The notes beneath the pieces are model-generated. The model worked only from the letters and a program-made list of their open reading frames with translations. It had not been told where the DNA came from and ran no database searches. Positions 6,001-56,383 of a stretch of 64,000 nucleotides of DNA are shown piece by piece. The position numbers and the translations under genes are program-made. Source of the DNA: Synechococcus sp. RS9916 (lineage in GTDB: Bacteria; Cyanobacteriota; Cyanobacteriia; PCC-6307; Cyanobiaceae). The DNA lies in the NCBI RefSeq assembly GCF_000153825.1, contig NZ_DS022299.1, forward strand, positions 1,886,869-1,950,868, read 5' to 3'. Position 1 is the stretch's first letter, and each line of letters opens with the position of its first letter.

Positions 6001-9000
6001 GCACTGTTAACGCCAATACCGTCACCACCCTCACTGGCACAGCCGCAGACCTCAACACTGCTTACGACTCCGCCGGCATCAGCAACCTCGGCAATGAGGC
6101 CATCACCCTCTCCGACACCACCCTCGCGGTCTCCGTCCTCAACACCCTTGATGGCAACACCTCAGGGACCGTTAACGCCAATACCGTCACCACCCTCACC
6201 GGCGCTGCTGCTGATCTCAACACGGCCTATGCCTCGGCCGGCATCAGCAATCTCGGCAATGAGGCCGTCACCCTCTCCGACACCACCCTCGCGGTCTCCG
6301 TCCTCAACACCCTCGACGGCAATACCTCAGGGACCGTTAACGCCAATACCGTCACCACCCTCACTGGTGCTGCCGCAGACCTGATCACTGCTTACGCATC
6401 AGGCGGCATTAGCAACCTCGGCAATGAAGCGGTTTCCGTCAGCAGCGGCACTGCTTCCACCTCACAAGCCAACACCCTCGCTGCTGCCACCTCCGGCGTC
6501 GTCACCGCCACCCTCTCCGATGGCGATCTCTCAACACTCGCCGGACTCACCGAAACCGGCAACGCCTACACGATCACCATCACGGACACCTCCGTTGATG
6601 CCGCTGCTCTCAACACGCTCGATGGCAAGACCACCGTTGCCATCAATGCCAACAACATCACCACCCTCACTGGCGCTGCCGCAGATCTCAACACCGCCTA
6701 TGCCGCCAACGGCTCCAGCATCACCGGCCTCGGTAATGAAGCAGCCACCCTCTCCGACACCACCCTCGCGGTTTCCGTCCTCAACACCCTTGATGGCAAC
6801 ACCTCCGGCATCGTTAACGCCAGCAACATCACCACGCTGACCAGTGATGACTACGACTCACTAAATACTGCTTATACATCCGCCAATGGTGGAGCAATCA
6901 CAGGACTAGGCGACGAAGCAATCAGCGTTAGCGGCAGGATTCGCGTTTCAGAAGCAAACACACTTAACGGCCATACCACTGGAGTCATCACTGCAACAAT
7001 TACGAATAGCGATGGAACAGGCAACCTCGACATTTCCTCTGCTCTGAACTTAAACGGAACAGAAAATGCTTATTCAATCCGCATTAAAGAACAAACCGTC
7101 AGCACTTCTGATCTACTGGCCGTTGATGCAATCACAACGACGACAGTCAATGCACAAAACATAAGAACACTTGAAGGAACCTACACCGAAGTCATTGATT
7201 CCTATGCCGCCGAAACAGCAGGAAGAATTTCAGGATTAGGAAGCAATTGCAATTTCAATATCAGCGGCGCAATCACTGTTGCAGAAGCCAACACACTTTC
7301 CGCATTAATTACCAACAACAACCGAAGACTGACCGCGACAATCTCTGATGGCGACATGGCCACATTGGCCGGGATCAGTGAAAGCGATCACAACTTAACG
7401 ATCACCATCACGGACACATCTGTTGATGCGGCAGCGCTCAACACCCTGGACGGGAAAACAGACACAGCGATTGATGCGGGCAACATCACCACGCTCACGG
7501 GTGCCGCTGCAGACCTCAACACTGCTTACGCCTCCTCCGGCATCAGCAATCTCGGCAATGAGGCCGTCACCCTCTCCGACACCACCCTCGCGGTCTCTGT
7601 TCTCAACACCCTCGACGGCAACACCTCAGGGACCGTCAACGCCAACACCGTCACCACACTCACTGGTGCTGCAGCAGACCTCAACACTGCCTACGCCTCA
7701 GCCGGCATCAGCAATCTCGGCGATGAGGCCGTCACCCTCTCTGACTCCACCCTCGCGGCCTCCGTTCTCAACACCCTTGATGGCCACACCTCCGGTGCCA
7801 TCAACGCCAGCAGCATCAACACGCTCACCGGCAGCGCCTCTGACCTGATCACTGCCTTTGCCTCCTCCGGCATCAGCAACCTCGGCAATGAAGCGGTTTC
7901 CGTCAGCAGCGGCACTGCCTCCACCTCTCAAGCCAACACCCTCGCTGCTGCCACCTCCGGTGTCGTCACCGCCACCCTCTCCGATGGCGATCTCTCAACA
8001 CTTGCCGGACTCACCGAAACCGGCAACGCCTACACGATCACCATCACGGACACATCTGTTGATGCAGCAGCCCTCAACACCGTCGATGGCAAGACCACCG
8101 TTGCCATCGACGCCAGCAACATCACCACCCTGACTGGTGCAGCCGCTGACCTCAGTACTGCCTACGCCTCATCTGGCATCACGGGGCTCGATGACGAGAA
8201 CATCACGCTCTCTGACACCACCCTCGCGGTCTCCGTCCTCAACACCCTCGACGGCAATACCTCAGGGACCGTTAACGCCAATACCGTCACCACCCTCACC
8301 GGCGCTGCTGCTGAAGCCAACACGGCCTATGCCTCGGCCGGCATCAGCAATCTCGGCAATGAGGCCGTCACCCTCTCCGACACCACCCTCGCGGTCTCCG
8401 TCCTCAACACCCTCGACGGCAATACCTCAGGGACCGTTAACGCCAATACCGTCACCACCCTCACCGGCGCTGCTGCTGATCTCAACACGGCCTATGCCTC
8501 GGCCGGCATCAGCAATCTCGGCAATGAGGCCGTCACCCTCTCCGACACCACCCTCGCGGTCTCCGTCCTCAACACCCTCGACGGCAATACCTCAGGGACC
8601 GTTAACGCCAATACCGTCACCACCCTCACTGGTGCTGCCGCAGACCTGATCACTGCTTACGCATCAGGCGGCATTAGCAACCTCGGCAATGAAGCGGTTT
8701 CCGTCAGCAGTGGCACCGCTTCCACCTCTCAGGCCAACACCCTCGCTGCTGCCACCTCCGGCGTCGTCACCGCCACCCTCTCCGATGGCGACCTCTCAAC
8801 ACTCGCCGGACTCACCGAAACCGGCAACGCCTACACGATCACCATCACGGACACCTCCGTTGATGCCGCTGCTCTCAACACGCTCGATGGCAAGACCACC
8901 GTTGCCATCAATGCCAACAACATCACCACCCTCACTGGCGCTGCCGCAGATCTCAACACCGCCTATGCCGCCAACGGCTCCAGCATCACCGGCCTCGGTA

Positions 9001-24520: not shown

Positions 24521-24742
24521 AAGGCATTCAGGAGATCGGAAAGCACCTCGGAGTTCAAAGCCATTCACAAACCGCTAAGCAAGGCCTTCTGCGAGGAGCC
24601 TCAACACACCCTCCAAGGCAACGACCCTCCAAATCCCGAACAAGCCAAACCTCAGCCAAATAGCCATTGCCCACAATCAGGGGGTACAAATGTGCGAGAA
24701 GGGTTAAAAGCCGACAAAATAATGCTGAGAATCTGCTGAGAG

Positions 24743-27700
24743 TTGCCCCCTAACAGCACCAAAGCAACTCCATCCATCAGAGCCGCCGAGGTCATATCCT
24801 CATCGGCGAAATCAACGTGCGAGCCGGAGCAACCGTACAACCCGTCAACAATTATTGTCGCTCCTGGCCTTGAGCTTCCAGCCCTTCGGCCTGAAGCAGC
24901 AACGGTCACGATTCAGCTTGAGGCAACGGCCAACCCTCTAAGCGCGATCACAGAGGCGCTCGAAGAACGACGCCAGCAAGGCACACCAGCCAAAGAACTC
25001 CATCTTCTGGCGCATGGCAACAGCCATGGGATTCAGCTGGCTGACCAATGGATCGATCAGGCCGCCTTGTTGCGCCATGCCACGGAACTAGCCCAATGGC
25101 AGATCAGCACTGCAGTGCTGTGGTGCTGCCAAATCGGCCGAAATCAAGAGTTCATTAACCTCTTGAAAGAGTTCACCGGAGCCGAGGTCTTCGCAAGCCA
25201 CAACAGCATCAACAAAGAAGCAATTCAGACCTCCAATCAAGATAGAGATACTCGCCAGCTTTCTGAACTAATTGAAAACAGTCAACTCCAATCCTGGGAA
25301 GATGCCTTGGCATGGATTCAAATTGACGACGAAATCGAAGGCAGGAAAAAAGGCGCAAGAAGCGGAGAAGCTGTCAGCCTATCGAGCGATGGAAGCACAT
25401 TAGCGATTGGAAGCTGGAATGATCGAACTTACAATTCGCAGCAAGGAAGTGTTGCTACTTACAGATTAAACAGCGACAACGAATGGGAACAAATTGCGAT
25501 CATCGATGGCGATAACAAAGGTGACTTTTTCGGCGCTTCAGTAAGCCTCTCGAATGATGGCACAAGGCTGGCCATTGGCGCACCAAGAGATGATAACGGA
25601 GGAGACAAATCCGGCGCAATCTCTATTTACGAACTCTCAGGAAGCACATGGAACCAACTTGGTAGCACGATCGCAGGCCTTTCAAGAGGACGAGCAGGCG
25701 CATCTCTAGAACTCTCTGGCGATGGGAGCACGGTTATTTTTGGTTCCGTTAAAAAATTTAGCGGAAAGGGATTTGCGGGCATTTATACATGGAATGGAAC
25801 AAAGTGGAAACGGATTGGCAGCAATGTTGAAGGCACACAAAAAAAAGAATATGCAGGAACTTCAGTCTCAATATCGGAAGATGGCAACAGAATCGCAATC
25901 GGCTCGAATGGATTTAACAGCGGCGGAAAAGCCGACAAAGGCCGGGTCAGAGTTTACGACAAAAGTGGCAGCACATGGTCGTTAAAGTTCACCTTCATTG
26001 GCACAGCAGCACATGACAAATTTGGAGGTTCCGTTTCACTATCAGACGACGGAAATATCATTGCAATTGGAGCTCCTTTGCATGGTGGAGGCAATAAAGG
26101 ACATGTTCGTATCTATGACATTAGTGGTTCTAGCAAAGTACAGCTTGGAGCAGATATTGACGGCAATGCCAATGGCCAACAGTTTGGTGGAACCGTCAGT
26201 CTCTCTGCAAACGGGCAACGAGTAGCGATAGGCGCCCAATGGGCCGATGGTGTAGCGAACAACGCCGGCCGCGTCAGAATTTATGAGTATCAGAGCAGCA
26301 GTGACACCTGGACAAAAGTTGGTTCAAACATTCATGGAGTAGCAGAAGACGATCGTGCGAGTGCTTCTGTTGGCAACAGTGGGGTAAGCCTCAGCGGCGA
26401 CGGACAAAGTGTTGCCGTTGGAGCCATGTTTCACAGGGGAGCTGCAGGCGTAAATTCCGGACACGTAAGGGTTTTTGCTGCCAGTGGTCTCACCATTGCC
26501 CAGACCGGCACCACCGACGGCTCCGGCAATCTCCTCACCACAGAAGCAGGCTCCACTTCCACATTCACCGTTGTTCTCGATGCCAAACCCACAGCCAATG
26601 TCACCGTCACCCTCACCGGTGCCGACAGCACTGAACATTCCCTCAGCGCCTCGTCGCTGACCTTCACCGCAGACAACTGGAATACACCCCAAACCATCAC
26701 CGTCACCGGCGTCGACGACAGCCTCGACGATGGCGACATCACCACCACACTCACCGCCACCGCAGAAAACACAGGCGGCTATGCCGGCACTGAAACAGCC
26801 ACCACCACCGTCAAAAACACTGATAACGACAGTGCTGGACTCACCATTGCCCAGACCGGAACCACCGATGGCTCCGGCAATCTCCTCACCACAGAAGCTG
26901 GCGGCACCTCCACATTCACCGTTGTTCTGAACGCCAAACCAACGGCTGATGTCACCGTCACCCTTACAGGCACTGACAGCACTGAACACTCCCTCAGCGC
27001 CTCGTCGCTGACATTCACAACCAGCAACTGGAATACAGCTCAAACCATCACCGTCACCGGTGCCAATGACACCATCGTTGATGGCGACATCACCACCACA
27101 CTGACCGCGACTGCTTCCAACACAGGCGGCTACGCCGGCAGCGAAACAGCCACCACTACTGTCAAAAACACCGATAACGACACCGCCGGCATCACCATTG
27201 CCAAAACAGGCACCACCGATGGCTCCGGCAATCTCCTCACAACAGAGGCCGGCTCCACCTCCACATTCACCGTTGTTCTCGATGCCCAGCCCACGGCCGA
27301 TGTCACCGTCAACCTCACCGGTACCGACAGCACAGAACATTCACTCAGCGCCTCGTCGCTGACATTCACAACCAGCAACTGGGATACAGCCCAAACCATC
27401 ACCGTCACCGGCGTCGACGACAGCCTCGACGATGGCGACATCACCACAACGCTCACCGCCACCGCCTCCAATACAGGTGGTTATGCCGGCAATGAAACGG
27501 CCACCACCACCGTCAAAAACACCGATAACGACAGCGCCGGCATCACCATTGCCAAAACAGGCACCACCGATGGCTCCGGCAATCTGCTCACCACAGAAGC
27601 TGGCGGCACCTCCACATTCACCGTTGTTCTGAACGCCAAACCAACGGCTGATGTCACCGTCACCCTCACCGGTGCCGACAGCACTGAACACTCCCTCAGC

Positions 27701-30700
27701 GCCTCGTCGCTGACATTCACAACCAGCAACTGGAATACAGCTCAAACCATCACCGTCACCGGTGCCAATGACACCATCGTTGATGGCGACATCACCACCA
27801 CACTGACCGCGACTGCTTCCAACACAGGCGGCTACGCCGGCAGCGAAACAGCCACCACTACTGTCAAAAACACCGATAACGACACCGCCGGCATCACCAT
27901 TGCCAAAACAGGCACCACCGATGGCTCCGGCAATCTCCTCACCACAGAAGCTGGCGGCACCTCCACATTCACCGTTGTTCTCGATGCCCAGCCCACGGCC
28001 GATGTCACCGTCAACCTCACCGGTACCGACAGCACAGAACATTCACTCAGCGCCTCGTCGCTGACATTCACAACCAGCAACTGGGATACAGCCCAAACCA
28101 TCACCGTCACCGGCGTCGACGACAGCCTCGACGATGGCGACATCACCACAACGCTCACCGCCACCGCCTCCAATACAGGTGGATACGCAGGCGAAACAGC
28201 CACCACCACCGTCATCACACTCGACGACGACAGCTCCGGCCTCAGCATTGCCCAAACCGGAACCACTGATGGCTCCGGCAATCTGCTCACCACAGAAGCT
28301 GGTGGGTCCTCCACATTCACCATTGTTCTTGATAATGAGCCAACAGCCAATGTCACCGTCTCCCTTACCGGTGCCGACAGCACCGAGCATTCACTCAGCA
28401 CCTCAACGCTGACGTTCACAACCGCCAACTGGAATACAGCTCAAACCATCACCGTCACCGGGGTCGACGACAGCCTCGACGATGGCGACATCATCACCAC
28501 ACTGACCGCGACTGCTTCCAACACAGGTGGGTTTTCGGGATCAAAGGCTGTCTCGACAACCGTTAAAAACACGGACAACGACAGTGCTGGCATCACCATT
28601 GCCAAAACAGGCACCACCGATGGCTCCGGCAATCTCCTCACCACAGAAGCTGGCGGCACCTCCACATTCACCGTTGTTCTCGATGCCCAGCCCACGGCCG
28701 ATGTCACCGTCAACCTCACCGGTACCGACAGCACAGAACATTCACTCAGCGCCTCGTCGCTGACATTCACAACCAGCAACTGGGATACAGCCCAAACCAT
28801 CACCGTCACCGGCGTCGACGACAGCCTCGACGATGGCGACATCACCACCACCCTCACCGCCACCGCAGAAAACACAGGCGGCTATGCCGGCACTGAAACA
28901 GCCACCACCACCGTCAAAAACACTGATAACGACAGTGCTGGACTCACCATTGCCCAGACCGGAACCACCGATGGCTCCGGCAATCTCCTCACCACAGAAG
29001 CTGGCGGCACCTCCACATTCACCGTTGTTCTGAACGCCAAACCAACGGCTGATGTCACCGTCACCCTTACAGGCACTGACAGCACTGAACACTCCCTCAG
29101 CGCCTCGTCGCTGACATTCACAACCAGCAACTGGAATACAGCTCAAACCATCACCGTCACCGGTGCCAATGACACCATCGTTGATGGCGACATCACCACC
29201 ACACTGACCGCGACTGCTTCCAACACAGGCGGCTACGCCGGCAGCGAAACAGCCACCACTACTGTCAAAAACACCGATAACGACACCGCCGGCATCACCA
29301 TTGCCAAAACAGGCACCACCGATGGCTCCGGCAATCTGCTCACCACAGAAGCTGGCGGCACCTCCACATTCACCGTTGTTCTTGATGCCAAACCAACGGC
29401 TGATGTCACCGTCAGCCTCTCTGGTGCTGATAGCACCGAGCAGTCTCTTAGCGCCTCGTCGCTGACATTCACCAGCTCGAACTGGAATACGCCCCAAACC
29501 ATCACTGTCACCGGAGTTGATGACAGCCTCATTGATGGCGACATCACCACCACCCTCACGGCCACCGCCTCCAACACAGGCGGCTACGCCGGCACTGAAA
29601 CAGCCACCACCACCGTCAAAACAACGAACAACGACAGCGGCGGCATCACCATTGCCAAAACAGGCACCACTGATGGCTCCGGCAATCTCCTCACCACAGA
29701 AGCGGGCGGCACCTCCACATTCACCGTCGTCCTTGATGCCCAGCCTACGGCCAATGTCACCATCACCCTCACCGGTGCCGACAGCACCGAGCACTCCCTA
29801 AGCGCCTCTTCGCTGACATTCACCAATTCCAACTGGAATACTCCCCAAACCATCACCATCACCGGTGTCGATGACAGCCTTGAGGATGGCGACATCACCA
29901 CCACACTCACCGCGACTGCATCCAATACAGGTGGATTCACCGGCAGCGAAACAGCCACCACCACCATCAAAACCACAGACAATGACAATCCACCATCGAT
30001 TAGCGATCAAAGTGAAGATGTTTTGGAAAGCGCCAGTAGTGGCACAGAATTACTTGATCTTGCCGACGCCAATTCGGGAAACGACACAGACAAAGACGGT
30101 GATCAAATTACCTATACAATTAGCGATGGAAATGATATGGGACTATTTACGATTGAAGCAGCAACGGGAAAGATTTCACTTGCCTCAGGCAAGTCACTGG
30201 ATCACGAAACAAGCGATCTACACGTTCTCGAGATCTCTGCAACAGACGGCACAAGATCAACAACAGCCAAAATAAGCATCAACGTCATCGACGTCAATAA
30301 TGCACCAGTTGCAGAAGCAGATAGCGGCTCAGTCAACGAGAATGAAACACTCAGCATCACCGCAGCATCAGGACTCATCCTTAACAATGACACCGATGAA
30401 GATGGTGACAGCTTGACCATCAGCAACTTCCATGCTGGTGTTCTCAGTGCAAGCTCGCCACGGATCGGTCAATTCAACACAGCCCTTGATGGTGACTTCG
30501 GACAATTAACGCTGCAAGCCGACGGATCATTCAGCTATACCGCCAACAAGACAGCCGCAGATGCACTTGCCAGTGGAGAAACAGAAAGCGACATATTTTC
30601 ATACAGACTCAGCGATGGAAAGCTAACGGACTCCACAGAGCTCACCATCACAATTACAGGTGTCAATGACAATCCCTTCCTTGTCGACGCGATCAAAACG

Positions 30701-33361
30701 AAAAAATATATTGAAGGACAAGGAAACATTATTGTAATCGACGGCAGCCTCGACATTCGAGATATTGATGATGAAAATATTGAAAGCGCAACGGTCTCGA
30801 TATCGAACAGCACCTATGTCAGCACAGAAGATCAACTTGCATTCACAAATAACTTTGGAGTATCTGGCAGCTGGAATTCATCCACAGGCGTACTAACACT
30901 CAGCGGCTCAACCACAAAAGCGAATTACATCAGTGCCCTACAAACAGTCACTTACACCAATACCAATGATGCCGATCCTGTAATCGGCGCAAGAACCATT
31001 CAATGGGTTGTCAATGATGGGGATGGCAGCTCAACCGCCATCGAATCGAAAATCATTGTGGGTGGTCGAAATGATGCCCCCTCATCAGTCAATGACATTG
31101 CCAGCGTTAACGCCGGCTCCACAGTGTCAACAAACACCAACTTGCTAGCCAATGACACCGACCCAGAGAGTCACTCTCTTTCCATCACATCATTTCGAAG
31201 CGGTAGCGAGCAGGAATCAAATGTTGCATTTTCACCAGGCGCCACCTTAACAGGAACCTATGGTCAGATGACTATCGAATCGAATGGCACATACAGCTAT
31301 ACTGCTCAAGAAACAGCAGCTCAAAAATTACTCGAAGGCGAAACAGCAACCGAAACTTTTACATACAAAATAACAGACAGTCAAAGCACTGATGAAGGCA
31401 TCGACACCGGCGAAATTACAATCACGATTACCGGAGTGAATGATGCACCAACAGCCATTAATGACACAGCGAATGTCAACGAAGACTCTTCAAAGTTATT
31501 TGAAGACTTCCAGGGAATCCTGAAGAATGACACCGATGTTGATGGCGACAAGCTTTATATCAAAAGCGTACGAACAGGAACGGAAATCAGTAGTAGTGAT
31601 TTCCAGCTCAACAGCGTGGGAACAGAACTCACAGGCACCTATGGCACATTATTAGTCAATCTCGATGGATCCTATCGTTTCACAGCCAACAATGCCGACA
31701 AGTTAGACGCTGGCGATAGAGAAACCGACAATTTCACATACACCCTGACCGACCTCACGAATGACGATACTGCCGAAGTGGTCATTCAGGTCACTGGGGT
31801 CAATGATGCGCCGACACTGAATACGATCGACAAAGGCGCAGTACTTGATCAAGCAAATTCTAATGCAATCACCAGCACGAAGCTTTCAGGTCAATTAACA
31901 GCATCCGATCCTGATGAGTCAGCTGTACTTGAATATGGAATCAGCTCAAGCAACACCGCAAGTATTAGAAGCAACAATTGGAAGAGCTATGCAAGCAATT
32001 CACTTACAGGATCTTATGGCCAGCTCAGCGTTAATTCCTCAACAGGCGAATACACCTACACACCCAACAAAACAGCTGTCAATAATCTTGACGCCGGTCA
32101 GACAGCAACGGAGTCTTTTACACTTTTTGTAAGCGACGGCAGCCTGACATCATCTCAGAATTTTGAGATTGACATCACTGGTGCAGCTGATACTCCAAGC
32201 TCTTCCAACAGTGGCTCCTCAGACAGTGGCTCCTCAGACAGTGGCTCCTCAGGCAGTGGCTCCTCAGGTAGTGCTTCTTCCGATACTATCGAATCAGACC
32301 AGGGAAAATCAGAAACCACCAGCAGTGGCAGTGAGAGTGATCGATTTGATGGCTTAATTGGTTCCTTAATAACTGATGCCGTCACCGGCTCAGATCACTT
32401 CTCAAGCCTTGCAACACCTTCTAAATCGTTCCTCATAGCTTCGAATGATCTCGGCAGCATTAACACCCTTCAATCCATCAGCTCAACGAAATCAGATCAA
32501 AAATTTTTAAATTCATTCAACAATGGACAAGGAGGCTTCACGCAACGCATCCTCTCCAATGGATTTGCCTCAATTGAACGCAGCAATGGCATTCGCTTAA
32601 TAGCGCCAAAACACACAGACAAAAGCTGGCAACAAAACATTCCTCCGGGAAGAACAAATCAAATTCCACTTTTAGTCACTCTCACAGAAAACCCAAAACA
32701 GAAAGCCATCGTGAAACTGAATTTTGGCGATTCATCCATCAATCTTTCAGAAAGCATTCTTCATTTCACGCAAGATAACTGGGACACACCTCAAGTGGTC
32801 TGGATTGATCTCACAAACGGACCCCATACAGAAGAAGATGTAAAGCTTGAACTAACAACAAGCCTGCAAATAGGCGGCAAGGGATCTGAAGCGCAAGTCG
32901 ATACCTTCACGCTTACAGTTCCAAACCCAAAGGCAAGCCAGCAGGAAAGCTACGCATTGCCCACCAGCCAGAACGATGAGGCTGCAGGCAATGACCCAAA
33001 TCTAGACCTTGAACTCGAAACCGTCAGAGAAGAAAGTTCCCCAATTTTTCTACTATTAAAAACCGCACTATCCCCTCTCATCGTCCTCGCCAATATGGCA
33101 ATACACGGCATCAATCAAGCAAAAAATCATCACCAATCAATTGTTGATTTGACATCCCAAACTGAAGAAAAGACACAACCCGAGCAATTCGTGAGTTCGA
33201 ATGAAAGCTTCGAATCAAGCGAGACGTACGAAGCTATCGATCTAACCAGTCAACACAACAGCAGCAAGACGTTTCCTAATACCTCAATCAGCCCCTTACT
33301 CACACCAAACCCAGTTTCCGACGGCAGCGCTGACCACCAAGGCGTTATTGAACTGTGGTGA
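24743..33361 (+). CDS. Second giant surface protein: DUF4347, propeller, 117-residue repeats, cadherin/VCBS
   Basis: About 2,870 residues. Residues 36-165 look like DUF4347 (ELHLLAHGNSHGIQLADQW, TAVLWCCQIGR, TGAEVFASHN), a domain found at the N-terminus of giant cyanobacterial adhesins. Then come seven FG-GAP_2-like units (about 205-575), ten 117-residue repeats (about 583-1749), a cadherin-like domain (LDHETSDLHVLEISATDG), four or five VCBS-like units (NNDTDEDGD, YGTLLVNLDGSYRFTA), a Ser/Gly linker and a roughly 350-residue tail. The tail contains one degenerate repeat (LHFTQDNWDTPQVVW) and a hydrophobic stretch (LLLKTALSPLIVLANMAIHG). The start is uncertain: the only upstream initiator in frame is TTG at 24743, just after a TGA, with no clear ribosome site, so the 5' end may be damaged. 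The 222 bp between dnaB and this gene show nothing else I can name. Adhesion or surface coating is inferred. Confidence 0.85.
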   Translation: MPPNSTKATPSIRAAEVISSSAKSTCEPEQPYNPSTIIVAPGLELPALRPEAATVTIQLEATANPLSAITEALEERRQQGTPAKELHLLAHGNSHGIQLADQWIDQAALLRHATELAQWQISTAVLWCCQIGRNQEFINLLKEFTGAEVFASHNSINKEAIQTSNQDRDTRQLSELIENSQLQSWEDALAWIQIDDEIEGRKKGARSGEAVSLSSDGSTLAIGSWNDRTYNSQQGSVATYRLNSDNEWEQIAIIDGDNKGDFFGASVSLSNDGTRLAIGAPRDDNGGDKSGAISIYELSGSTWNQLGSTIAGLSRGRAGASLELSGDGSTVIFGSVKKFSGKGFAGIYTWNGTKWKRIGSNVEGTQKKEYAGTSVSISEDGNRIAIGSNGFNSGGKADKGRVRVYDKSGSTWSLKFTFIGTAAHDKFGGSVSLSDDGNIIAIGAPLHGGGNKGHVRIYDISGSSKVQLGADIDGNANGQQFGGTVSLSANGQRVAIGAQWADGVANNAGRVRIYEYQSSSDTWTKVGSNIHGVAEDDRASASVGNSGVSLSGDGQSVAVGAMFHRGAAGVNSGHVRVFAASGLTIAQTGTTDGSGNLLTTEAGSTSTFTVVLDAKPTANVTVTLTGADSTEHSLSASSLTFTADNWNTPQTITVTGVDDSLDDGDITTTLTATAENTGGYAGTETATTTVKNTDNDSAGLTIAQTGTTDGSGNLLTTEAGGTSTFTVVLNAKPTADVTVTLTGTDSTEHSLSASSLTFTTSNWNTAQTITVTGANDTIVDGDITTTLTATASNTGGYAGSETATTTVKNTDNDTAGITIAKTGTTDGSGNLLTTEAGSTSTFTVVLDAQPTADVTVNLTGTDSTEHSLSASSLTFTTSNWDTAQTITVTGVDDSLDDGDITTTLTATASNTGGYAGNETATTTVKNTDNDSAGITIAKTGTTDGSGNLLTTEAGGTSTFTVVLNAKPTADVTVTLTGADSTEHSLSASSLTFTTSNWNTAQTITVTGANDTIVDGDITTTLTATASNTGGYAGSETATTTVKNTDNDTAGITIAKTGTTDGSGNLLTTEAGGTSTFTVVLDAQPTADVTVNLTGTDSTEHSLSASSLTFTTSNWDTAQTITVTGVDDSLDDGDITTTLTATASNTGGYAGETATTTVITLDDDSSGLSIAQTGTTDGSGNLLTTEAGGSSTFTIVLDNEPTANVTVSLTGADSTEHSLSTSTLTFTTANWNTAQTITVTGVDDSLDDGDIITTLTATASNTGGFSGSKAVSTTVKNTDNDSAGITIAKTGTTDGSGNLLTTEAGGTSTFTVVLDAQPTADVTVNLTGTDSTEHSLSASSLTFTTSNWDTAQTITVTGVDDSLDDGDITTTLTATAENTGGYAGTETATTTVKNTDNDSAGLTIAQTGTTDGSGNLLTTEAGGTSTFTVVLNAKPTADVTVTLTGTDSTEHSLSASSLTFTTSNWNTAQTITVTGANDTIVDGDITTTLTATASNTGGYAGSETATTTVKNTDNDTAGITIAKTGTTDGSGNLLTTEAGGTSTFTVVLDAKPTADVTVSLSGADSTEQSLSASSLTFTSSNWNTPQTITVTGVDDSLIDGDITTTLTATASNTGGYAGTETATTTVKTTNNDSGGITIAKTGTTDGSGNLLTTEAGGTSTFTVVLDAQPTANVTITLTGADSTEHSLSASSLTFTNSNWNTPQTITITGVDDSLEDGDITTTLTATASNTGGFTGSETATTTIKTTDNDNPPSISDQSEDVLESASSGTELLDLADANSGNDTDKDGDQITYTISDGNDMGLFTIEAATGKISLASGKSLDHETSDLHVLEISATDGTRSTTAKISINVIDVNNAPVAEADSGSVNENETLSITAASGLILNNDTDEDGDSLTISNFHAGVLSASSPRIGQFNTALDGDFGQLTLQADGSFSYTANKTAADALASGETESDIFSYRLSDGKLTDSTELTITITGVNDNPFLVDAIKTKKYIEGQGNIIVIDGSLDIRDIDDENIESATVSISNSTYVSTEDQLAFTNNFGVSGSWNSSTGVLTLSGSTTKANYISALQTVTYTNTNDADPVIGARTIQWVVNDGDGSSTAIESKIIVGGRNDAPSSVNDIASVNAGSTVSTNTNLLANDTDPESHSLSITSFRSGSEQESNVAFSPGATLTGTYGQMTIESNGTYSYTAQETAAQKLLEGETATETFTYKITDSQSTDEGIDTGEITITITGVNDAPTAINDTANVNEDSSKLFEDFQGILKNDTDVDGDKLYIKSVRTGTEISSSDFQLNSVGTELTGTYGTLLVNLDGSYRFTANNADKLDAGDRETDNFTYTLTDLTNDDTAEVVIQVTGVNDAPTLNTIDKGAVLDQANSNAITSTKLSGQLTASDPDESAVLEYGISSSNTASIRSNNWKSYASNSLTGSYGQLSVNSSTGEYTYTPNKTAVNNLDAGQTATESFTLFVSDGSLTSSQNFEIDITGAADTPSSSNSGSSDSGSSDSGSSGSGSSGSASSDTIESDQGKSETTSSGSESDRFDGLIGSLITDAVTGSDHFSSLATPSKSFLIASNDLGSINTLQSISSTKSDQKFLNSFNNGQGGFTQRILSNGFASIERSNGIRLIAPKHTDKSWQQNIPPGRTNQIPLLVTLTENPKQKAIVKLNFGDSSINLSESILHFTQDNWDTPQVVWIDLTNGPHTEEDVKLELTTSLQIGGKGSEAQVDTFTLTVPNPKASQQESYALPTSQNDEAAGNDPNLDLELETVREESSPIFLLLKTALSPLIVLANMAIHGINQAKNHHQSIVDLTSQTEEKTQPEQFVSSNESFESSETYEAIDLTSQHNSSKTFPNTSISPLLTPNPVSDGSADHQGVIELW
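25360..26478 (+). repeat. Seven diverged FG-GAP_2-like units
   Basis: The seven cores are EAVSLSSDGSTLAIGS, ASVSLSNDGTRLAIGA, ASLELSGDGSTVIFGS, TSVSISEDGNRIAIGS, GSVSLSDDGNIIAIGA, GTVSLSANGQRVAIGA and SGVSLSGDGQSVAVGA. Spacing is irregular (about 50-60 residues). The count matches a closed seven-bladed propeller, as in the upstream giant protein, but these units have diverged and look older. Confidence 0.8.
26491..29990 (+). repeat. Ten tandem 351-bp repeats
   Basis: Ten copies of a 117-residue beta-rich unit: TIAKTGTTDGSGNLLTTEAG, GTSTFTVVLDAQPTADVTV, DSTEHSLSASSLTFTTSNW, TAQTITVTGVDDSLDDGDI, TTTLTATASNTGGYAG, ETATTTVKNTDND. It resembles Calx-beta-type repeats of bacterial surface proteins, without certainty. 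Near-identical copies alternate (2 with 8; 3, 5 and 7), which suggests block duplication. Copy 6 is the most divergent (GFSGSKAVSTTVKNTDND). Confidence 0.9.
30000..32190 (+). other. Cadherin-like domain and VCBS-like units of the second giant protein
   Basis: A cadherin-type domain at about 30000-30300 (FTIEAATGKISLASGKSLDH, ending INVIDVNNAPVA) is followed by units that end in a TGVNDxP-like boundary and carry NDTDxDGD calcium-type motifs with YGQ/YGT...GSYSYT strands, as in VCBS repeats. The unit at about 30665-31060 differs (YIEGQGNIIVIDGSLDIRDI). These are calcium-stiffened adhesive folds in known families. Confidence 0.7.
32208..32282 (+). repeat. 15-bp microsatellite coding a Ser/Gly linker
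   Basis: Five in-frame copies of a 15-bp unit (ACAGTGGCTCCTCAG and variants) encode NSGSS DSGSS DSGSS GSGSS GSASS. It joins the VCBS-like units to the C-terminal tail and is prone to slippage without loss of frame. Confidence 0.9.
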
Positions 33362-52551: not shown

Positions 52552-53178
52552 TTAGCCCTGCGCCAGACGCTCCAGATACCGGGCCCTGGAACCGGCATTA
52601 ATCCAACCGGTGGCGATGGTTTTGCTGGCGGTGGGATTCACCCGGCCGCGATGAATGTGGGATGGGCCCGCCGGGAAAATCACCAGCTTTCCCCGTTCGG
52701 CCGGTTCGTGATGGTCTTGCCAGTGAAATTCCGTGCCCGCTTCATCGACGGAATCGCAATACAGGATCCAAGCCAACACCCGATGCTCCGGCTCAGTGGC
52801 TTCATCACTGATGGTCCAGTCGCAGTGCCACTGCTTGAACCCCTCACCGGGGGCGTAGCGCTGCAGGTTAAAGATCGGCATCACGAACAGCTCCTGATCC
52901 GGGCACACCGCACGGAATAAGGGGCGCTCCTTGAGGTATTGCTCCAGAGCGGCCGTCACCCCTCGCACGATCACTTCAGAGAGGGCATAGGCATCGGGGT
53001 CACTGCGATCAATCGCCACCAGGCTGATGTCGGTCGACACCTTGGCCGGTTCCTCTCTGCCCGCCGGGCCAAACGCGACCCCCGGCCGCTGCAGATCGGT
53101 GCGGCGTTCAAAGAAGGCCATCACCCCATCGGCCACGGCGGCATAACCGGCGTTGCTGTAGCGCCCGATCAGGTTCAT
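52552..53178 (-). CDS. 2OG-Fe(II) oxygenase family protein
   Basis: 208 residues. The iron-binding triad is visible: His118 and Asp120 in FKQWHCDWTI and a histidine in GPSHIHRGRV (174 or 176). The 2-oxoglutarate-binding basic residue is probably in NPTASKTIATGW. The family hydroxylates proteins or small molecules. The closest pattern is the prolyl-hydroxylase-like clade (FNLQRYAPGEGFKQWHCDW, ILYCDSVDEAGTEFHW). Its ATG overlaps the stop of the next gene upstream by four bases (ATGA), so the two are co-translated. Substrate unknown. Confidence 0.85.
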   Translation of the reverse strand: MNLIGRYSNAGYAAVADGVMAFFERRTDLQRPGVAFGPAGREEPAKVSTDISLVAIDRSDPDAYALSEVIVRGVTAALEQYLKERPLFRAVCPDQELFVMPIFNLQRYAPGEGFKQWHCDWTISDEATEPEHRVLAWILYCDSVDEAGTEFHWQDHHEPAERGKLVIFPAGPSHIHRGRVNPTASKTIATGWINAGSRARYLERLAQG

Positions 53179-53672
53179 GGCTGACCCTCCTGCTGCACAT
53201 CGGAGCCCGCATCGAGCTGCCAGGGAATCGCCAACACACCCTCCAACTGCTGCCAGCGGGCCTGGTCAACAACACGATCCAACAACCCGATCCGCTCCAG
53301 AGCTTTGGCCACCCGATCAGCAGCCAGCAAGCTGGCATCACCAGCCACCTGGGGCAGCACCAGCACCTGCTGGTCGGCGGGATCAGCCAGCACCTGCAGC
53401 TCCAGATCGCCGAGATCCCGCTCAAAAAACACGCGGCGCAGGCGGCTGGTGAGGGGTGCACCGAGGGCCTCGGCAAAGTGCTCCAAACTCTCCCGCTCTC
53501 CAGAAAGGCCGCAATTCAGCGCCAGCCAGATCAGCAGCTTGGCCCAGCTATCGACGCTCCACAGCGGCTGGAAGCTCTCCCGGTTCTGACGAATCAGCTC
53601 CAGGATCGCGAAATCAAACAAGGTGGCCTGCAGGCGCACCGGTTCTGGCGGCGTTGAGGGAGACGTGGTCAT
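53175..53672 (-). CDS. Conserved hypothetical protein, coupled to the 2OG oxygenase gene
   Basis: 165 residues from ATG 53672 (MTTSPSTPPEPVRLQATLFD). The protein is alpha-helical in its first half (LIRQNRESFQPLWSVDSWAK, LLIWLALNCGLSGERESLEH) and beta-rich in its second (DLELQVLADPADQQVLVLPQ). I do not recognise the family. The ATGA overlap with the oxygenase gene suggests that the two act together or need equal amounts. Only 35 bp separate its start from the divergent GST gene, so the promoters overlap. Confidence 0.7.
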   Translation of the reverse strand: MTTSPSTPPEPVRLQATLFDFAILELIRQNRESFQPLWSVDSWAKLLIWLALNCGLSGERESLEHFAEALGAPLTSRLRRVFFERDLGDLELQVLADPADQQVLVLPQVAGDASLLAADRVAKALERIGLLDRVVDQARWQQLEGVLAIPWQLDAGSDVQQEGQP

Positions 53673-53707
53673 GGCGCCATCCTGACGGAACGGGATCGAC
53701 CTCTTCG

Positions 53708-54391
53708 ATGGCATCACTGCAGCTCTACGGATGCTGGCGCTCCAGCGCTTCTCACCGGCTGCAAATCGGCCTACGACTCAAGCAGCTGCCGTTTGAGTAC
53801 AGGCCTGTTTCCCTGGATGAGAAAGAACAACACTGCGATTGGTACCGAGCTCTCAATCCCCGCGGTGAAGTGCCAACGCTTGTGGTCGATGGCAGCCCCT
53901 GGGTGCAGACCCTGGCCATCCTTGAAACCCTCGACGAGCGCTTTGCCGACCAAGGTGTGCCATTGCTGCCCCGCGATGCCGAGCAACGTCAGTTATGCCG
54001 GGCCGTCGCCGAACAGGTGAACAGCTCACTGCAGCCGCTGCTGCTGCCGGCCCGACTCCGCCAACCAATTCTCAAAGCCGCGGCCCCTGACGGCGCACCA
54101 GCGCTGGCGAAAGCTCTGCAGGCCGGTGTACGAGCCCACCAGGCCGATGCGCTCAACGCCCTCAACAGCTGGCTGGATGCCTTGCCCGGCCCCTTCTGCC
54201 TGGGCAGCGAACCCACCCTGGCCGATGCCTGCGTAGTGGCACAGCTGGGGGCAGCCATGCGACTAGGGCTCGACCTCAATCCTTTCCAACGGCTCAGTGA
54301 ATTGCACACCCACTGCCTTGGGCACGAGGCCTTTGCCGCCTCTGCACCCGAGCAACAGCCGGATGCACCAAGCCAGGCGCCGATGCGTTAA
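53708..54391 (+). CDS. Glutathione S-transferase family protein (zeta/maleylacetoacetate isomerase-like)
   Basis: 227 residues from ATG 53708 (MASLQLYGCWRSSASHRLQI). The catalytic Ser/Cys motif of zeta-class GSTs is visible (YGCWRSSASHRLQIGLRLK). The thioredoxin-fold half also holds GEVPTLVVDGSPWVQTLAIL, and the helical half holds LGSEPTLADACVVAQLGAAM. Zeta GSTs isomerise maleylacetoacetate in tyrosine breakdown; whether this one does is not shown, and cyanobacterial homologues may do other glutathione chemistry. The ATG lies 35 bp from the divergent hypothetical. Confidence 0.85.
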   Translation: MASLQLYGCWRSSASHRLQIGLRLKQLPFEYRPVSLDEKEQHCDWYRALNPRGEVPTLVVDGSPWVQTLAILETLDERFADQGVPLLPRDAEQRQLCRAVAEQVNSSLQPLLLPARLRQPILKAAAPDGAPALAKALQAGVRAHQADALNALNSWLDALPGPFCLGSEPTLADACVVAQLGAAMRLGLDLNPFQRLSELHTHCLGHEAFAASAPEQQPDAPSQAPMR

Positions 54392-54481: not shown

Positions 54482-56038
54482 TCAAAGATCCGGCATCGCC
54501 TTGAGGTAATCCCTCAGTAAGGGGTGTTCCTCCAGGCCGGCCCACTGCTCCCGTGCGGCAGCAGCCACCAGCGCCTCCGCCCGGGATGAAAGGTGCTGAC
54601 GCCAGTTGTCGGTAGTGCCGGCCCGGAAATAAAGCTTGGGGTTGAGATGAAAACTGCCGGGATTGGCCGTAATGCCTTGCTTCATGGCCTGAAACTCCGT
54701 CGCAGCAGCGATCGCTTCGGTCCGCTCGGACGGGAGGTCCGCAGAAGGGAAGAGAAAGCGCTGCAGCTGCCCCACGGTTTCATGCTTGCGCTCCACCATG
54801 TCCTCATAACGAAGCGCACAGATCTGGGCGGACTGCAGGCGCGGGCCTGGTTTCAACCAGCCACGCACGTGGCTGAAGTAGTTGCCGAAATAGAGGTCAC
54901 CCTGAACAAACAGTTCGGCAAAACGATCCAAATCCAGCTCGGGATCCACCTGGAGCAGCGGGTGGCGAAGCCAAAAGAAATACTGCGACACCAAAGCCGC
55001 CCGCGGATCACGGATGGCCACCACAAACCGGGTTTGAGGATGAATCCGGCGGCAAGGGATGTCGTCAACGGCGCAATGGAGGTACCAAAGCCGCAGCCGA
55101 TCCGAGGTGGCGGCCAAAAACTGCTCCCAGTCTCCAGGGGTCTCCTGAGAGAGCAGCACCTCAGGCCAGGGCATGGCACCATGACCGATATCGCCATCGG
55201 CCATCGGATGGCGGGCAGGAAGCTCGACGTTGGCCCGTACCAGCTCCACCAGGAATTTCTTGGCCAGGTGAGTTCCCACCTTCTGATGGGTGGCAAGAAA
55301 CACGTCATGGGCCTGGGTGTCCCAGGTTTGCGTGAGATGCGCCGTAGCCCGCTGATCGATGAACGGGGGGTAGCAGCGACCGTTCCAGCGGTGGTGCAAG
55401 AAACCCTCGGCATGGGCCAGGGCCGCGGGCTCGAAAGTGCGAAAGCTGTGGCCCGGCCGCATCGCCTCCAGGCGATCCCGCAGCACAGCAATGGTGCGAT
55501 CCAGACGTTGGGAGCGCTGCTGGAGGCGACGACTGGCAAACATCGCCTGCACTGATGGCGCAATGGCATGGGCGACCGCCTCAAGCTGCGCCTGATCGGC
55601 TGCCGTGAAGGCCTGCCCATCGCGGCGGTTCAACACCTGCAAAGCCCCCACTACCTCACCGTCCTCCGCCTGGATGGGCACGGTGAGCGCAGTGGATACC
55701 ACGTAATCCAAAGCAGCCCCAGCCTGTTGATGGGCTCCGTCGTCATGCTCGAGGCCGCTGCGATTGATGCAACTGCCGGTTCGCACGCAGGCACCCACCA
55801 TCGAATCCTCAAGATCGACACAGATCTGCCGCTGCATCACATCCGTGCCGGCTTCCAGCCAAAGCTCCTGGGCATCGGGGTCAAGCACGAACAGCCCACA
55901 ACGCTCTGCCCACATCAGACCAGGCAGGGTCACCACCAATAAAGCCAGCAAATCGTTATTGCGCAGGGCATCCCAGCGCCGCGCCAACTCCTGGCGCCGT
56001 GCCACAACCCGCTGCATGCCCTGGTCCAGGGAGGTCAT
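54482..56038 (-). CDS. GAF domain fused to a PAPS-dependent sulfotransferase-like domain
   Basis: 518 residues. Residues 30-165 look like a GAF sensor domain (MWAERCGLFVLDPDAQELWL, DYVVSTALTVPIQAEDGEVV, GALQVLNRRDGQAFTAADQA), followed by a coiled linker. Residues 245-515 look like a cytosolic-type sulfotransferase: a 5'-phosphosulfate loop (LATHQKVGTHLAKKF, 249-262), a WYLHCAVDDIP segment like the catalytic His region, the 3'-phosphate site IRDPRAALVSQYFF, ALRYEDMVERKHE, and the end motif YFRAGTTDNWRQHLSS (compare RKGxxGDWKxHF). The proposed reaction is transfer of sulfate from PAPS to an unknown acceptor, with the GAF domain sensing a ligand. The fusion is unusual in my knowledge. Start ATG 56038. 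Confidence 0.8.
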   Translation of the reverse strand: MTSLDQGMQRVVARRQELARRWDALRNNDLLALLVVTLPGLMWAERCGLFVLDPDAQELWLEAGTDVMQRQICVDLEDSMVGACVRTGSCINRSGLEHDDGAHQQAGAALDYVVSTALTVPIQAEDGEVVGALQVLNRRDGQAFTAADQAQLEAVAHAIAPSVQAMFASRRLQQRSQRLDRTIAVLRDRLEAMRPGHSFRTFEPAALAHAEGFLHHRWNGRCYPPFIDQRATAHLTQTWDTQAHDVFLATHQKVGTHLAKKFLVELVRANVELPARHPMADGDIGHGAMPWPEVLLSQETPGDWEQFLAATSDRLRLWYLHCAVDDIPCRRIHPQTRFVVAIRDPRAALVSQYFFWLRHPLLQVDPELDLDRFAELFVQGDLYFGNYFSHVRGWLKPGPRLQSAQICALRYEDMVERKHETVGQLQRFLFPSADLPSERTEAIAAATEFQAMKQGITANPGSFHLNPKLYFRAGTTDNWRQHLSSRAEALVAAAAREQWAGLEEHPLLRDYLKAMPDL

Positions 56039-56125: not shown

Positions 56126-56383
56126 ATGACCCTGGATCTGAACGATCCCGAACTCGAGTTTTCGGATCTCGTTTACGCCTACCAGAGTTGGGTGATGGCG
56201 GTGATCAACGATGAGAAGCTCGACAGCGACGACCAGCTGCTGACGGACGAGATCACCGAAGACGCCCTGAACTCGATGCGCTTCCTCCCGGGTGAGGTCA
56301 CCAGCGCGATCGAAACCAGCCTGGCTCGCGTCTATGACGTTGACGCCGATGAACTGGCGGCCCTTCTCTTCCCAGAAGACTGA
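56126..56383 (+). CDS. Small conserved acidic hypothetical protein
   Basis: 85 residues, very acidic (MTLDLNDPELEFSDLVYAYQ, then SWVMAVINDEKLDSDDQLLT, ending DVDADELAALLFPED). No Cys, no metal site. The helical composition and acidity suggest a small interaction or regulatory protein. It is transcribed divergently from the GAF-sulfotransferase gene (87 bp apart) and lies 20 bp upstream of the methyltransferase, so it may share an operon with it. Role unknown. Confidence 0.75.
   Translation: MTLDLNDPELEFSDLVYAYQSWVMAVINDEKLDSDDQLLTDEITEDALNSMRFLPGEVTSAIETSLARVYDVDADELAALLFPED

Follow-up and report, generated by a model that had tools for sequence, protein, structure and literature searches.

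Cytosolic sulfotransferases of the SULT type, for example human SULT2A1 and SULT1C2, typically have the phosphosulfate loop TYPKSGTTW, and APS kinase is the usual source of PAPS. GAF domains that bind cyclic nucleotides have a signature consisting of an NKFDE motif and a GYRT (GYxT) stretch. Glutathione S-transferases (GSTs) of the zeta family have an SSCS motif with the active-site Cys. GAF and sulfotransferase domains are each well known, and we know of no sulfotransferase with a small-molecule sensor domain of its own. Searches by title or abstract start in the open-licence PMC literature found no published GAF-sulfotransferase fusion, and the same kind of search found none in the literature on picocyanobacterial or marine Synechococcus island sulfotransferases. 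The available part of PMC554113 gives a TPR-sulfotransferase architecture and no GAF one.

The gene described here lies in a 64,000-nucleotide stretch of the Synechococcus sp. RS9916 genome (the window) and is a single intact open reading frame, from ATG to stop, that encodes a 518-residue protein (Table 1). The initial annotation had proposed that a GAF sensor domain is fused to a eukaryote-like sulfotransferase. This architecture was borne out by Pfam scans of the whole protein and of its halves separately: residues 1-177 matched GAF (3.1e-11) and residues 178-518 matched Sulfotransfer_1 (1e-27). The GAF match (PF01590) scored 41.5 bits, and 44.4 bits on the N-terminal half alone, against a cut-off of 22.4; the Sulfotransfer_1 match scored 96 bits against a curated cut-off of 22. 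Four other loci carry the full protein at 82% identity, and whole-gene dN/dS was 0.04-0.16 (0.10-0.16 for three close pairs), with dS saturated for distant pairs. The fusion is therefore beyond chance, and purifying selection acts on the gene. No membrane segment was apparent in the 518 residues with 19-residue Kyte-Doolittle windows. The highest mean was 1.5, and thus the protein is probably soluble.

Table 1. Coordinates of the GAF-sulfotransferase gene, its domains, its neighbors, and the dispersed repeat (window positions unless another locus is named)
Feature	Coordinates	Strand	Evidence or remark
GAF-sulfotransferase gene	54482..56038	-	518 aa; ORF listing and domain profiles
GAF domain, residues 29-160	55559..55954	-	Pfam PF01590 E=2.3e-10; CyaB2 GAF 1ykd E=6e-12
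Linker, residues 161-243	55310..55558	-	helix 146-193 predicted only in low-confidence model (pLDDT 41)
Sulfotransfer_1 domain, residues 244-490	54569..55309	-	Pfam E=3.2e-27; alignment; predicted fold, Z 20.5 to SULT1C2
Zeta-class-like glutathione S-transferase, 227 aa	53708..54391	+	Pfam GST_N_2 8.5e-15; convergent with GAF-sulfotransferase
Two-gene stretch between hyp180 and hyp85 start codons	53673..56125	.	2453 bp vs 96 bp in empty sites
hyp180, left neighbor, resident, flanks insertion	53175..53717	-	likely start 53672-53675, inside listed ORF
hyp85, right neighbor	56126..56383	+	conserved; divergent from GAF-sulfotransferase
Dispersed repeat, ~110 bp	L027 2565-2701, 10530-10663, 12790-12869
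Dispersed repeat, ~110 bp	L030 7642-7794, 10690-10830, 11938-12042
Dispersed repeat, ~110 bp	L031 15347-15453

The sulfotransferase half is of the cytosolic SULT type by Pfam, by sequence match to solved structures, and by predicted fold. Its closest PDB relative by sequence was human SULT2A1 (4ifb, 8.5e-15). A structure model of this half had a pLDDT of 67 and a pTM of 0.72; the seven rows of its alignment were all sulfotransferases, including four other ones, which is a caveat on the fold match. The same human enzyme was the top Foldseek match of the model (4e-9), and VIA-align superimposed the model on SULT1C2 with a Z score of 20.5 and an rmsd of 3.1 over 253 aligned residues at about 20% identity. 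The phosphosulfate loop and the RDPRAALVSQYFF and FRAGTTDNWRQHL motifs named in the initial annotation were all present. The RDPRAALVSQYFF motif carries R343 and S351, and the FRAGTTDNWRQHL motif carries R472 and G474. These four residues, together with K253, G255, and H321, were invariant in an alignment of eight sulfotransferases (the window protein, four other cyanobacterial sulfotransferases, one paralogue from the same genome, and two orthologues), and the catalytic residues are therefore retained. Thus neither observation that was to count against the initial annotation, a missing GAF match in the first 170 residues or the loss of catalytic residues, was made. We take K253 to be the loop Lys, H321 the catalytic His, R343 and S351 the 3'-phosphate site, and R472 and G474 the C-terminal RxG.

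The catalytic half is thus predicted to adopt the SULT fold with the key PAPS-site positions intact. It resembles the cytosolic SULTs in modeled fold and in catalytic-domain size, and it has in common with them the PAPS-site Lys, His, Arg, and Ser and the C-terminal RxG positions. It differs from them in the added N-terminal GAF domain and linker and in the loop. The loop reads ATHQKVGTHL, in which K253 and G255 are kept but the remainder (THQKVGTH, rather than the TYPKSGTT of SULTs) is unusual. The genome encodes an APS kinase (E=1.1e-70). It also has three further Sulfotransfer_1 loci, and therefore sulfonation as such is not special to the GAF-fused gene.

The best solved relatives of the N-terminal half are the GAF domains of CyaB2, PDE10A, and PDE2A, with the tandem GAF of cyanobacterial CyaB2 (1ykd) first. 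Among the matches listed, 10 of the 11 solved relatives were cyclic-nucleotide cyclases or phosphodiesterases; the exception was a metal-dependent phosphohydrolase. The stretch that resembles their NKFDE motif reads N137-R138...F144-x3-D148-Q149 (N-R-F-D-Q) and was invariant in five orthologues. The GYRT-like stretch is DYVV, with a third position that varied among the orthologues. The cyclic-nucleotide signature thus appears to be partly lost. Unlike the CyaB2, PDE10A, and PDE2A proteins, the fusion has a single rather than a tandem GAF domain, a sulfotransferase output, and signature residues that are in part replaced. Cyclic nucleotides are possible ligands, judged from these relatives, and redox sensing by Cys 47, 73, 84, and 90, which were also invariant in the five orthologues, is possible as well. 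An fRMsr-like redox GAF was set aside, as the second Cys of that family was not aligned when inspected by eye.

In four comparisons with the window copy, identity was 73-79% for the GAF domain versus 85-88% for the sulfotransferase. Purifying selection on the GAF domain persists (dN/dS 0.06-0.26) although it evolves faster than the sulfotransferase, and such faster change would also be seen in a domain with loose constraints or a purely structural role. A looser genome-wide search with a GAF profile turned up a single other GAF locus and missed the window locus. A search of this kind overlooks GAF domains as divergent as that of the fusion; we therefore rely on the direct Pfam scan and regard absence in such searches as weak evidence. 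A full-length structure model, made from a three-row alignment, had a pLDDT of 41 and was left out of the fold comparison.

The fusion is rare. How widely it occurs was a question raised with the initial annotation, and full-length copies were found in 5 of 400 sampled genomes of the family, with a truncated remnant in one more. The search with the sulfotransferase half matched eight of those 400 genomes: the five full copies and three weak partial matches. A search with the full protein matched 16 of 300 family genomes, comprising four full-length copies, one copy of residues 1-98 (G289), and 11 weak matches to the GAF part or the sulfotransferase part alone. Within the genus, 31 genomes held two full copies and one remnant. 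Synechococcus sp. UW140 and Synechococcus sp. AG-670-F04 are among the carriers. The G289 remnant (about the first 98 residues, at 8546-8887 of locus L031) lies between unrelated genes, and no GST match was found in L031.

Across the phylum, a full-length model, with at most three candidates scored per genome, matched 239 of 386 genomes; among the matches listed, those outside the family were to the GAF part only. The sulfotransferase half matched 8 of the 386, namely, two known full copies, one weak family match, and five distant matches outside the family, whose frames measure 296-317 aa except for one of 616 aa, which looks like a dehydrogenase-type fusion. No further GAF-sulfotransferase fusion outside the family was among the matches listed for these 386 genomes. 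Beyond the phylum, a single scan of species genomes for close relatives returned two Synechococcus loci. The initial stage of these searches is incomplete, as shown by the miss of the window locus with the GAF profile, and a distant GAF-sulfotransferase may exist elsewhere. In another cyanobacterium a related sulfotransferase is, like the window protein, fused to another domain (L097 232-2064, 610 aa). Its N-terminal half looks by eye like an NAD-binding dehydrogenase, and no GAF domain was seen by eye in the translation.

In all five full-length loci (the window and four others) the fusion and a GST gene are arranged tail to tail. Beyond this pair, the surroundings differ in three of the four other loci. 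At E<=1e-30, a threshold that removes weaker GST matches from the count, 4 of 300 family genomes yielded this GST, and these were the same four that carry the full-length fusion. The partner GST matched the maleylacetoacetate isomerase/zeta GST profile TIGR01262 over nearly its full length but scored 155.3 bits, below the curated cut-off of 171.05. It also differs from zeta GSTs in that SSAS replaces the expected SSCS, so that Ala stands at the position of the zeta active-site Cys. The co-occurrence of GST and fusion can reflect physical linkage on one mobile piece. A different, second GST-family gene (disulfide-bond oxidoreductase type, below cut-off) lies just past the G225 module (L030 10949-11755).

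The pair occupies a site that is empty in most relatives for which the site was recovered. The start codons of the neighbors hyp180 and hyp85, both conserved and both with no Pfam match at E<=0.01, are separated by only 96 bp in the nearest empty sites (L069 and L070), and the stretch inserted between them in the window holds the GST and the fusion only, a module of about 2.4 kb. The site was empty in all 20 sister genomes fetched, which were drawn from the 30 other genomes of the genus. Of 34 genomes of a second genus, hyp85 was recovered from 27; 24 of these sites were empty, one was occupied (AG-670-F04), and two were uninformative. The window-type site was also empty in UW140, G216, and G225, in which the pair is located elsewhere. 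These relocated pairs have a common core of 2395 bp that is 95-96% identical. Between UW140 and G216 or G225, dS was 0.07-0.15 for the pair versus 0.77-1.45 for four resident genes, and between G216 and G225 it was 0.07-0.09 for the pair versus 0.38-0.72 for resident genes. The far lower dS of the pair indicates that the pair moved recently, and plain vertical inheritance of the relocated copies is ruled out by these values. Judged by this sequence divergence, the GST-fusion pair is a mobile module with near-identical copies in two genera. Neither this mobility nor the GST partner had been noted in the initial annotation.

A degenerate hyp85 lies beside the fusion in the UW140 locus L027 (44% identity over 76 residues, 3.4e-16), and upstream of the fusion in the G225 locus L030 the sequence resembles, by eye, the start of hyp85. 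These traces indicate that the relocated copies probably descend from a window-like arrangement. A piece that resembles, by eye, the upstream region of occupied sites is common to the empty sites of UW140 and of the copy-less genome G169; this suggests past loss of the module at both. The two copies at the window's site (the window and AG-670-F04) would be explained either by an ancestral insertion with many losses or by two insertions at one site. In the window a tRNA-Val gene is 4.6 kb from the module; no tRNA was found in the five related loci, L027-L031. A dispersed repeat of about 110 bp, with the core AGTTGCACAAAA...GGGACAACTC, is found near the copies in L027, L030, and L031 and had no match in the window.

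The reading that we prefer, to which we give a probability of about 0.38, is that a soluble, SULT-type GAF-sulfotransferase is regulated by its GAF domain and acts with the GST in a laterally moving conjugation module. The GAF domain would sense a small molecule, probably as a dimer through a helical linker, and would set the activity of the sulfotransferase. With PAPS as donor, the sulfotransferase would sulfonate a hydroxyl group on a small molecule in the cytosol, and that molecule would also be the substrate of the GST; in the simplest case, glutathione would displace the newly added sulfate. Together the two enzymes would form a sensor-controlled conjugation route, for detoxification or tailoring, that is acquired and lost by a few strains. 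What was observed is the domains, the active-site positions, the pairing, and the mobility; ligand gating, which the initial annotation also proposed, is inferred. The initial annotation had suggested a lipid, a glycan, or a surface protein as the acceptor. These now appear less likely than a soluble small molecule, because the protein has no apparent membrane segment, its closest folds are small-molecule SULTs, and the GST is its neighbor in five of five full-length loci.

Use of a sulfonated product by a GST has precedent. In PMC10664145, SULT products that lose sulfate, or reactive sulfate esters, can be conjugated to glutathione, in some cases by rat theta GSTs. 1-Menaphthyl sulfate is listed as a substrate of human GSTT2 (PMC10452860), and PMC3903477 describes how a sulfotransferase of a cyanobacterium sulfonates a hydroxyl and so activates it, after which the sulfate is lost. 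The likeness of the theta GSTs of this literature (PMC10664145 and PMC10452860) to the partner GST is in the proposed chemistry only, for the partner is zeta-like and thus of another class. The narrower proposal, that a sensor-gated SULT switched by its GAF ligand forms with the constant GST a portable sulfonate-then-thiolate module of marine picocyanobacteria, we regard as doubtful. If the gating is true, the fusion would show allosteric control of sulfonation within a single chain that can be assayed. The constant GST pairing makes a specific two-step chemistry testable, and the module's recent transfer from one genus to another suggests that it meets a need of only some strains.

A somewhat doubtful alternative is that the GAF domain serves only dimerization or stability, that the sulfotransferase is always active, and that the GST is simply carried along. 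The lower conservation of the GAF domain and its incomplete cyclic-nucleotide signature are what would be expected of such a protein, and since both genes travel as one piece, linkage alone could explain their pairing. However, the GAF domain remains under the purifying selection noted above, no copy was seen that lacks the GAF domain alone, and the truncated G289 copy lost the sulfotransferase instead. In addition, two lineages with saturated dS (the window and L028) retain both genes. A GAF domain that does respond to a ligand might bind cAMP or cGMP from class III cyclases of the cell itself and so switch sulfonation. Two class III cyclase matches were found in the genome (1.1e-23 and 1.2e-9), the cyclases and phosphodiesterases among the solved relatives, CyaB2 foremost, point the same way, and so does the invariant NKFDE-like motif. 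Yet R and Q stand in place of the K and E of that motif, and in the GYRT-like stretch Val takes the place of Thr and the Arg position differs from orthologue to orthologue. Homology alone does not establish binding, and we consider cyclic-nucleotide switching unlikely.

The surroundings of the relocated copies bear on another function for the same enzyme, namely, that sulfonation of a lipid or cell-surface glycan alters phage adsorption and that the gene pair spread as protective cargo of phage-satellite-like elements. In phage satellites and tycheposons, the cargo is surrounded by an integrase, a tRNA site, and replication or packaging genes. The L030 copy adjoins a terminase-small-subunit-like gene (phrog_6299, 4.9e-8) and a weakly primase-like gene; a 45-residue remnant of the latter adjoins the L027 and L030 copies. 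Distant sulfotransferases also occur in viral contigs (five loci at 21-28% identity in a wider sulfotransferase alignment). The window insertion consists of two genes only, and no phage-like Pfam match was found in the six profiled window genes (the GST and five flanking genes). The primase match (Pfam 7.7e-5) is below the cut-off, the fusion protein has no apparent membrane segment, and the module contains no gene for glycan or lipid. A phage or plasmid origin of the fusion was rejected, as the whole protein had no match in 50,697 phage records, the sulfotransferase half had none in 72,556 plasmid records, and viral contigs held no close relative. The absence of phage-record and close viral matches further counts against phage protection, which is quite unlikely. 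It is least probable, and in our estimate very unlikely, that the pair tailors a natural product or hydrocarbon, with a hydroxyl activated by sulfonation as it is in the olefin synthase of cyanobacteria. PMC3903477 provides a precedent, and a P450-like gene lies 3 kb from the L027 module, but such a gene is near just one of the five copies, and the module is without a carrier protein, ligase, or synthase. The gene in question, which resembles cytochrome P450, is at L027 3879-5138, in UW140.

Apart from the GAF-sulfotransferase and its partner GST, the window contains two very long open frames. The first (3-23072, plus strand) encodes 7689 residues, runs off the left edge, and begins with NTLDSHTSGAVNANTVTTLTGAAADLNTAY-type repeats; it looks like a giant repetitive protein. 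The first 16 kb of the window has a strong GC skew (-0.30 to -0.38). The second frame (24740-33361, plus strand) encodes 2873 residues.
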